A DNA stretch of 38,870 nucleotides from Thermoproteota archaeon (GTDB lineage Archaea; Korarchaeota; Korarchaeia; Korarchaeales; Korarchaeaceae). The stretch is taken from the NCBI GenBank assembly GCA_027491435.1, contig JAOZFG010000006.1, forward strand, positions 1 to 38,870, read 5' to 3'. The position numbers and the translations under genes are program-made. Below the pieces are notes generated by a model. That model made no database searches. It saw only the letters and a list, made by a program, of their open reading frames with translations, and had not been told where the DNA came from. Positions 31,436-34,290 of the stretch are shown here, in pieces; position 1 is the stretch's first letter; every line of letters begins with the position of its first letter.

Positions 31436-33358
31436 CTACATCTTCTCTACCCTAGGAATTCCTAAGAGATCCATGGACACCCCAAGGACTCCCTTGAAGG
31501 CCTTAACCAAGGCCAGCCTCGCTGGCTCATACTCCCCTGACCCGACTACCTTGTATCTCTCGTAAAACCTGTTGAACAGCATACATAGCTCGTTAGCGTA
31601 TTGTGATACCAAGTCTGGCCTCATGAACTCTATGGCACCCCTGACAACCTCAGGAAACTCTCCTATCTTGAACATGAGCTCCCTTTCCAGCTCTGAAGAT
31701 AGCAGAGATACGTCATACTTCACTACTTCCTTAGAAGCCTTCCTTAAGATGCCTAAGGCCCTCGTGTAAGAGTACTGTATGAAGGGGCCGCTGTTGGACT
31801 CGAAGTCCAGCACCCTGTCCCAGCTGAACTGGATAACCTTTATCGGGGATACGCTAACTAGGGCGTACCTTACAGCCCCCACCGCCACCTTCTCAGATAT
31901 TTCCTCTACCTCCTCCTCGCTAAACTCTCCCCTGTTGGACAATATTTCCTTCACTTTTGCTTTGGCCTCATCTAGTAGATCGTCCAGAGTGACGTACCTG
32001 GCCTTTCTACCGGACATTCTCATGCCCACAAGGTTTACCATCTCGTAAGCCAGGTGTACTATCTTGTCAGCGCTGTACCCCATTAACGCCACGCTAGCTC
32101 TGACCTGTTTCTGCTCCAACGTTTGTTCAGTTGCTATTACGTTGTAGCACCTCTCAACTCCAACTCCCTCGATCTTGTATAGGGAGTAAGCTACGTCGGT
32201 GCCCGTGTAGAGCCAAGTACCGTCAGACCTCGTCAGGTAGAATTTCTGAGGGACTACTTGATCTAGTGAGCCTTCCTCAACGAGCTCCTTCACCTGCTCT
32301 TCCGATAAACCGAATATCTTTCTCACGTCATCTCTTTCGAGGAGGGCCTTCCTCAGGTCTACGTATATAGCTTTACCCTCCCTCCCCAAGTATCCGGATT
32401 CTTCCAGCTTTTTCAACGCCTTTTCCGTCCACCCTCTCCAGATGAGCTCGCTTTCCCAGTCCAGCGAGTCATACCTTATGCCCATCCTGCCCAGAGTCTG
32501 GAGGAAGCCCTCCATGACCGATTCGGCTACTTCCCTGAATATCGGCTTTACCTCCTCATCCCCCCTTTGATACCTCTTTAACAGCTCTGCTGTCTCCTCT
32601 AGAGATACCTTGCCCAATATGAGGTCCACCATCTCGGGCTCCTTCTCCCTTATCCTGTTCACCGCCTCAAGCCAATCTTCATACTCCCTCCTGGCCTCCT
32701 TATCATCCAACTTGCTTTCTAACTCCTTCATCTCCACTGAAGCGTTAGCTAAGGCGTATATGAGGCCGAACCAGTGGTCCAGTTTCCCCTTAGGCTTGAG
32801 ATTCCTGGCCTTAATCCTACCGGCTGCCGCCAGGGCTACCTGTAGGTTGCAGTCGTTCACCAAATAGTGAACAGTCACGTTGTAACCGGAAAACCTGAGT
32901 ATTCTGGAGTAGGAGTCCCCTATAACCGCATTTCTTCCACCTCCAACGTGAAGCGGGTGTACTGGATTGACGCTCGTGTGTTCGACCATCACGAAGTTCA
33001 GCTTCAGGGAGTCTGGCTTTACCCCCCTGCCCAGGTTCCCTGAGGAAGCCAGGGATAGCACGTCCTTGAACAGGGACTCGCTTACCTTAAGGTTTATGTA
33101 GCCGCCCACCGGCTTAATCTCCTCAGCGTAAAGTATGTCCTCAACTTTCAGCGATTCGGCCACCTTCCTAGACGCCTCATCGGGCCTTAAACCCAGTTTC
33201 TTAGCTAGTTTAAATCCTACGGGTAATCCTAGCATGTCTGTCGTCTTGGGAACCCTGCTAACGTGGAATGGCTTGAAAATGGGCTCTAGGCCCACACCCC
33301 TAAGGGCCTCGTTAACTGCGGTGGCGAAGCTTTTCTTTAGGGAACCTACAGGGTCCAT
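31436..33358 (-). CDS. argS: arginyl-tRNA synthetase
   Basis: Charges tRNA-Arg. About 640 residues, class I. N-terminal tRNA-binding domain (1-110), HIGH-type motif in VNPVHPLHVGGGRNAVIGD, the KMSKS-type motif replaced by MSGRKA (common in ArgRS), and the C-terminal anticodon-binding segment with QYSYTRALGILRKA. The frame reaches a GTG at 33367, but the ATG at 33358 has AGGTG six bases upstream and is preferred. A gap of about 40 bases separates it from the divergent endonuclease V fusion. Confidence 0.96.
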   Translation of the reverse strand: MDPVGSLKKSFATAVNEALRGVGLEPIFKPFHVSRVPKTTDMLGLPVGFKLAKKLGLRPDEASRKVAESLKVEDILYAEEIKPVGGYINLKVSESLFKDVLSLASSGNLGRGVKPDSLKLNFVMVEHTSVNPVHPLHVGGGRNAVIGDSYSRILRFSGYNVTVHYLVNDCNLQVALAAAGRIKARNLKPKGKLDHWFGLIYALANASVEMKELESKLDDKEARREYEDWLEAVNRIREKEPEMVDLILGKVSLEETAELLKRYQRGDEEVKPIFREVAESVMEGFLQTLGRMGIRYDSLDWESELIWRGWTEKALKKLEESGYLGREGKAIYVDLRKALLERDDVRKIFGLSEEQVKELVEEGSLDQVVPQKFYLTRSDGTWLYTGTDVAYSLYKIEGVGVERCYNVIATEQTLEQKQVRASVALMGYSADKIVHLAYEMVNLVGMRMSGRKARYVTLDDLLDEAKAKVKEILSNRGEFSEEEVEEISEKVAVGAVRYALVSVSPIKVIQFSWDRVLDFESNSGPFIQYSYTRALGILRKASKEVVKYDVSLLSSELERELMFKIGEFPEVVRGAIEFMRPDLVSQYANELCMLFNRFYERYKVVGSGEYEPARLALVKAFKGVLGVSMDLLGIPRVEKM

Positions 33359-33399
33359 GTCCAGCACCTTTCCTTGGTAGTGGGAGAGGTCCCGATAAA

Positions 33400-34290
33400 A
33401 TGTTGACCCCGTTCCAGTTGGCTTTGATCAAGGTGCTCTCTTCAATTCCACCCGGCAAGGTGGCCAGCTTTGGCTCTATAGCTGAAGCTTTGGGAGATAG
33501 AAGGGCTGCTTTAGCCGTGAGGAGCGAGTGTTTGAGGTTAAGGAAACTTAACGTTGAAGTTCCCTGGTGGAGGGCCGTAAACTCTGATGGAGTTCCGTTA
33601 AAGGAGGCCATCCCTTTCCTTAAGAGAGAAGGGGCTTTGAGGGGGAGTGTTGTAGAGAGGGAGCTCTTCGTGGATCCTCCGGAGAAGGAGCCTTTCCTCT
33701 CCAGGCTTAGGGCCATCCAAGAGAAGCTCTCTGAGAGGCTGGTGATAGGGGGCCTCCCAGATTCTGAGGTCGCTGGTGGCTTGGACGTCTCCTACTCCTT
33801 AGTTAACGGGATAGAAGTGGCCTACGCCTCCTGCGTCTTAGTGGACGAAAGGTTAAGGGTCGTGAAGGTGGAGAGGTTCAGCTACGTCCCTCCTATGCCT
33901 TACGTGCCCACATACTTGGCGTTTAGGGAGATAAGGGGCATGCTCGTAACCGCCAGAAGATGTAAGCCCGACGTGCTCTTCGTGGACGGTCAGGGAATCC
34001 TTCACCCTAGGCTGCTAGGGGAGGCCAGTCACGTGGGACTCGTAGCTGGGATCCCATCAATAGGGGTGGCTAAATCTAAGTTGGTGGGCAATCTTAAAGG
34101 GAACAAGATTTTCGTAGGGAAGGAGCACAGGGGGTGGCACTTCAGGGGGGGTTTCGTCTCCCCCGGTCACATGGTGGGCGTTAAAGAGTCTTTAGAGATA
34201 GCTAAGAAGTTCTGGTTGCCAGGGGAAAAGCAACCTAGGCCGCTAATACTGGCTCACAGGGACTCAAAATCTAGTAGACGTTTGGCTTGA
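33400..34290 (+). CDS. nfi: fusion of alkyltransferase-like (ATL) domain and endonuclease V
   Basis: 296 residues in two domains. Residues 1-75 are the DNA-binding half of O6-alkylguanine transferases (FQLALIKVLSSIPPGKVASFGSIAEALG, then RKLNVEVPWWRAVNSDG). Where transferases have PCHR and ATL proteins PWHR, this reads P55-W56-W57-R58, so no alkyl-accepting cysteine. Residues 115-296 are endonuclease V, which nicks DNA or RNA near inosine: D129 (GGLDVSYS), E177 (YLAFRE) and D196 (VDGQG) are the metal ligands, with HPRLLGEASHVG and GIPSIGVAKSKL. Fusions of an active transferase with endonuclease V are known in Thermoplasma-group archaea; here the first half is probably a lesion sensor. ATG at 33400 with GAGAGGT upstream. 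The stop overlaps the next convergent gene by 20 bases. Confidence 0.9.
   Translation: MLTPFQLALIKVLSSIPPGKVASFGSIAEALGDRRAALAVRSECLRLRKLNVEVPWWRAVNSDGVPLKEAIPFLKREGALRGSVVERELFVDPPEKEPFLSRLRAIQEKLSERLVIGGLPDSEVAGGLDVSYSLVNGIEVAYASCVLVDERLRVVKVERFSYVPPMPYVPTYLAFREIRGMLVTARRCKPDVLFVDGQGILHPRLLGEASHVGLVAGIPSIGVAKSKLVGNLKGNKIFVGKEHRGWHFRGGFVSPGHMVGVKESLEIAKKFWLPGEKQPRPLILAHRDSKSSRRLA

Follow-up and report, generated by a model that had tools for sequence, protein, structure and literature searches.

Proteins that join an alkyltransferase (AGT) domain to endonuclease V (EndoV) have been described before. The AGTendoV of Ferroplasma acidarmanus (Kanugula 2005) fuses the same two domains and activities and is competent in transfer (PMC10779285), whereas in the Korarchaeia fusion described here the Cys, the His, the arginine finger, the Tyr and the loop are all changed. 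Archaeal ATL-EndoV fusions, in which an AGT-like domain without the cysteine is followed by a C-terminal EndoV as it is here, were reported earlier by Tubbs 2009, according to PMC10779285, which, citing Tubbs 2009 and Pegg 2011, already contains the proposal that recognition of alkylated bases is coupled to cutting by EndoV. The free ATLs (S. pombe Atl1, 3gva; V. parahaemolyticus ATL, 2kif; E. coli ATL) resemble the present protein in having Trp in place of the Cys and in lacking the N-terminal domain of AGTs, but differ from it in being unfused and in retaining the arginine finger and the Tyr. In these folds the arginine finger stabilises the flipped base, the Tyr supports flipping, and a loop closes over the flipped base or lesion. 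The finger and the Tyr are common to ATLs and AGTs (PMC10779285).

The window, that is, the whole stretch of DNA that was analysed, comprises 38,870 nucleotides of a contig from a Korarchaeia genome. The open reading frame at 33400..34290 on the forward strand, which a preliminary description had read as an ATL-EndoV fusion, encodes 296 aa, and this reading was borne out given that both Pfam domains score above their cut-offs (DNA_binding_1 at residues 4-65, 46.8 bits versus 27; Endonuclease_5, PF04493, at residues 122-287, 124.5 bits versus a gathering cut-off of 23.4). Pfam, alignments and AlphaFold2 agree on an AGT/ATL-fold domain at the N-terminus (residues 1-95, 33400..33684) and an EndoV domain at the C-terminus (residues 96-296, 33685..34287), which is the architecture of an ATL/AGT-EndoV fusion; these and all features below lie on the forward strand. 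AlphaFold2, which was run on 34 fusions, gave a model of this protein with a mean pLDDT of 95.7 and a pTM of 0.90, in which the two domains are predicted to form one confident unit. Foldseek places the Vibrio ATL 2kif closest in structure to the N domain (103 columns, TM 0.72 by target length). The neighbouring gene, at 31436..33367 on the reverse strand, is divergently transcribed and, from its HVGGGRN motif, is presumed to encode arginyl-tRNA synthetase. This divergent pair recurs in Methanodesulfokora and in the five other members of the genus that were looked at, and is not kept in the genomes G018 and G020.

Residues 55-58 (33562..33573) read P55 W56 W57 R58, confirming that PWWR stands in place of the PCHR of AGTs, with Trp56 at the position of the active-site Cys; Trp is found at this position in all Korarchaeia fusions aligned. 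On sequence grounds, alkyl transfer by the N domain is ruled out because the Cys is absent, in agreement with the earlier view that this domain is no longer an alkyltransferase. The AGT fold with its Cys replaced, usually by Trp, is what defines an ATL, and to this extent the suggested alignment with the ATL and transferase families places the domain among ATLs. The same alignment shows that the arginine finger and the base-flipping Tyr have been replaced. Leu38 aligns to R39 of Atl1 and to the matching Arg of 2kif and Ada, with Arg41 lying three residues on (L-A-V-R, 33511..33522), and Phe24 (33469..33471) occupies the position of the Tyr. Furthermore, the active-site/binding-site loop region R58-G78 (33571..33633) has 21 residues versus 27-30 in Cys-bearing fusions, which makes it shorter by 6-9 in this genus. 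The statement that ATL proteins normally carry PWHR proved too strict, since 2kif, which like the fusion is also without the His, has PWFR and a free ATL of Acetothermia (L158) has PWQR. An aromatic residue after the motif Trp was for this reason rejected as something unheard of.

The preliminary description had gone further and assigned to the first domain the role of finding alkylated bases, which the data do not favor. According to this reading, the N domain would sense damage in the manner of an ATL, flipping O6-alkylguanine, or some other bulky or distorted base, into an aromatic pocket that has become larger, and bringing EndoV to cut next to it. The best structural and profile matches of the N domain are indeed ATLs, proteins that have nM affinity for alkylguanine and bring in nucleases (PMC10779285), and the PWFR of the Vibrio ATL shows that the motif tolerates a second aromatic residue. 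Against it stand the loss of the finger and of the flipping Tyr, the shortening in this genus of the loop that closes over the lesion, and the presence of a separate PCHR alkyltransferase in the same genome. Trp is also not generally required by selection, given that Cys-less fusions of Thermoplasmata have Gly, Ser or Ala at the Cys position. In the OGT of S. solfataricus, mutation of the arginine finger lowered DNA binding and left transfer intact (PMC4605297), which means that Leu38 does not prove that base binding has been lost; the lowered DNA binding of the same mutant argues against easy tethering to DNA by the N domain. Arg41, one turn on from Leu38, could be a moved arginine finger, and every member of the genus has Arg or Lys there. 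Because of the OGT mutant, of Arg41 and of the invariance of Trp56, the sensor reading keeps a sizeable share of the probability, even if it is considered doubtful.

The metal ligands of the endonuclease half are kept as had been described: D129, E177 and D196 align on D43, E89 and D110 of T. maritima EndoV (2w35). Y168, in the wedge PY at 167-168, aligns on wedge Tyr80 of the same structure, and the Lys of the AKS motif (K225) and H286 are present. The Foldseek match of this half to 6ozf has an E of 3e-20. The fusion and T. maritima EndoV (2w35, 6ozf) have the D-E-D triad, the wedge PY and the Lys in common, with a TM of 0.80 by target length, and the fold and the Pfam score are likewise those of an endonuclease V; the T. 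maritima enzyme, unlike the Korarchaeia protein, is without an N-terminal fusion. The EndoV half looks to be of the active type, most likely nicking at deoxyinosine or other deaminated purines. Given that EndoV homologues, including that of E. coli, cut inosine in RNA (PMC4842958), the main substrate of the fusion might instead be RNA inosine or structured nucleic acid, held by the N domain as a nucleic-acid tether. This is very improbable, since no sequence feature points to RNA and the top Foldseek and phmmer matches are bacterial EndoVs that act on DNA.

Another 21 genomes of the family gave matches to the fusion. PWWR is carried by all 13 members of the genus in which the N-terminal half is intact (12 others and the window), and Leu38 and Phe24 are likewise found in all 13 with the region in the alignment. 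It was consequently rejected that PWWR is a mutation private to one genome or an error of sequencing. The absence of PWWR from other members had been put forward as a sign of a decayed domain, and what is observed is the opposite, a genus-wide motif in a domain that is under purifying selection. At the motif, the sister Korarchaeia genera of this family read PWHR, GWHR or KWYK, from which it is deduced that the Cys-to-Trp change predates the genus and that the second Trp is specific to it. W56 is invariant in all 20 aligned Korarchaeia fusions, Pro55 and Arg58 are nearly so, and P17, G19, A28, G32, A36 and E77 are invariant together with W56. One of the genus members, G009, is a closed genome of one contig of 1,590,757 bases, which we take to be the chromosome of Ca. 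Korarchaeum cryptofilum; for this reason its PWWR-bearing protein (L010) may be the fusion reported by Tubbs 2009. In another genome, G022, the protein (L015) is identical to L039 of Ca. Methanodesulfokora washburnensis. Ca. Methanodesulfokora, of the class Korarchaeia, is of the same family as the window genome, which puts that genome in this class too.

The values of dN/dS, which refer to genus pairs given that the synonymous sites of the window protein itself are saturated, are about 0.02-0.15 for the N domain and about 0.07-0.17 for EndoV in the closest pairs, and about 0.2-0.3 versus 0.1-0.24 in more divergent pairs, far below 1 throughout. These low values show that the N domain is maintained under purifying selection. 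A decayed or frameshifted gene was rejected from the open frame in relatives and from these values, and N halves that are missing among relatives are missing only at contig ends (e.g., L021). These observations make it quite improbable that the N domain is a functionless vestige on its way out. Several active-site parts have been lost together, the dN/dS of the N domain is somewhat above that of EndoV in the more divergent pairs, and EndoV stands alone in other lineages of the class, where two members outside the family (G024 and G025) match over the EndoV part only, all of which would suit such a vestige. Nonetheless, the N domain is kept in all 21 family genomes with contigs that cover the region, its dN/dS is similar to that of EndoV in the closest pairs, seven of its residues are invariant, and its fold is predicted by AlphaFold2 with high confidence.

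A scan of genome contigs, together with loci from the genome search, gave 74 distinct fusions with an intact N domain. Such fusions were said to be known from the Thermoplasma group, where they do occur; they are far more widespread, being found also in Micrarchaeota/Diapherotrites, Njordarchaeota, Korarchaeia, Bathyarchaeota, Acetothermia/Bipolaricaulota and Planctomycetes. The Cys is present in 45 of the 74 (PCHR, PCYR, PCYK, PCRR, PCFK, VCHR) and absent from 29 (PWWR, PWHR, GWHR, KWYK, PTHR, PLHR, GSHR, GAHR, RGHR). Tyr24 is found in 45/45 Cys-bearing versus 4/29 Cys-less fusions, and Arg38 in 43/45 (plus one with Lys) versus 12/29 (plus two with Lys). The loop R58-G78 has 27-30 residues in every Cys-bearing fusion, whereas it reaches at least 27 in 4/29 of the Cys-less ones. 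In the EndoV half, ligands and Lys are in place in 45/45 Cys-bearing and 28/29 Cys-less fusions, the sole exception being L073, with N at 196 and T at 225. This Bathyarchaeota fusion (L073:5001-5909), which has PLHR and the altered EndoV half, is possibly doubly dead.

In the tree built from EndoV only, a single Cys-less clade is rejected (AU p 0.00026), ruling out that the Cys-less fusions form one ancient ATL-EndoV lineage. The Cys state has changed at least 4 times according to the fusion tree and at least 5 times according to the EndoV tree, counts that give no direction. In both trees the Korarchaeia fusions branch with PCHR fusions of Micrarchaeota/Diapherotrites, which fits with loss of the Cys in an AGT-EndoV ancestor. 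Two fusions of Planctomycetes (L094 and L095) are sisters in the tree, one with VCHR and the other with PWHR, a possible separate loss of Cys in bacteria.

The separate alkyltransferase of the window genome is a canonical PCHR protein encoded on another contig (C5). Of the 29 genomes that carry a Cys-less fusion, 28 have a separate AGT of the PCHR or PCWR type, checked by sequence for the Cys motif; of the 42 tested that carry a Cys-bearing one, 7 do (Fisher p 4e-12, a value that ignores shared ancestry and is therefore overstated). Many of these genomes are incomplete MAGs, and some absences of AGT may be false; G007 (fusion L005), which is 96% complete, stands alone in having a Cys-less fusion without any separate AGT being detected. 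When the tree is considered, there are two well-supported independent pairs (four on all branches), which show the expected direction or no difference and never the opposite. The association between loss of the Cys and a separate AGT is one that rests on few independent events. Some Korarchaeia genomes and one Thermoplasmata genome have an extra AGT-like protein (L141, L142, L159) with LIPCHRLLTKRGTLMGFYPLG (or close), which looks like a distinct AGT subfamily. The Acetothermia genome that encodes the PWQR-bearing free ATL also has an AGT-EndoV fusion with Cys (L088).

Taken as a whole, the protein is best explained as an active-type EndoV joined to a catalytically retired AGT-fold domain that is kept as a module for binding or positioning on DNA, a reading to which a probability of roughly 0.58 is given. 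The ancestor would have been a bifunctional AGT-EndoV, with a free AGT, once present, making the transferase half redundant. The HTH domain would then have been kept, docked to EndoV as a DNA-binding module that raises the affinity of EndoV or sets its position on the duplex, and would recognise O6-alkylguanine specifically little or not at all. Because the Cys and most of the parts that grip the base are lost, the retired domain probably now mainly helps the nuclease to hold DNA, and such a role of an HTH docked to EndoV appears more likely than alkyl-lesion sensing. Among the points that count against the retired module are the invariance of W56 in the 20 Korarchaeia fusions, as in true ATLs, and the fact that the structure closest to the N domain is that of an ATL; these would suit lesion sensing. 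It is also conceivable, though unlikely, that in this genus the AGT fold has been rebuilt as a new base reader, with a double-Trp pocket and the finger moved to Arg41, which passes a lesion other than O6-alkylguanine to EndoV. If this were true, EndoV would cut lesions that are invisible to EndoV alone.

No published mention was found of the second Trp, of the Leu at the arginine finger or of the loop deletion, with Tubbs 2009 being known through PMC10779285. As far as this analysis of sequences indicates, it would be new that the flipping apparatus is lost in a coupled manner, that the Cys has changed repeatedly and that there is a link with a separate AGT. With this survey, one odd motif becomes part of an experiment that evolution has repeated, in which the suicide cysteine has changed several times, nearly always in genomes that also carry another AGT. 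Given that the Cys-less fusions are mostly without the base-flipping parts and have the nuclease intact, the role of a transfer-dead transferase domain becomes testable, as does the idea, speculated on in reviews, that ATL-EndoV fusions may be nucleases for alkyl lesions.
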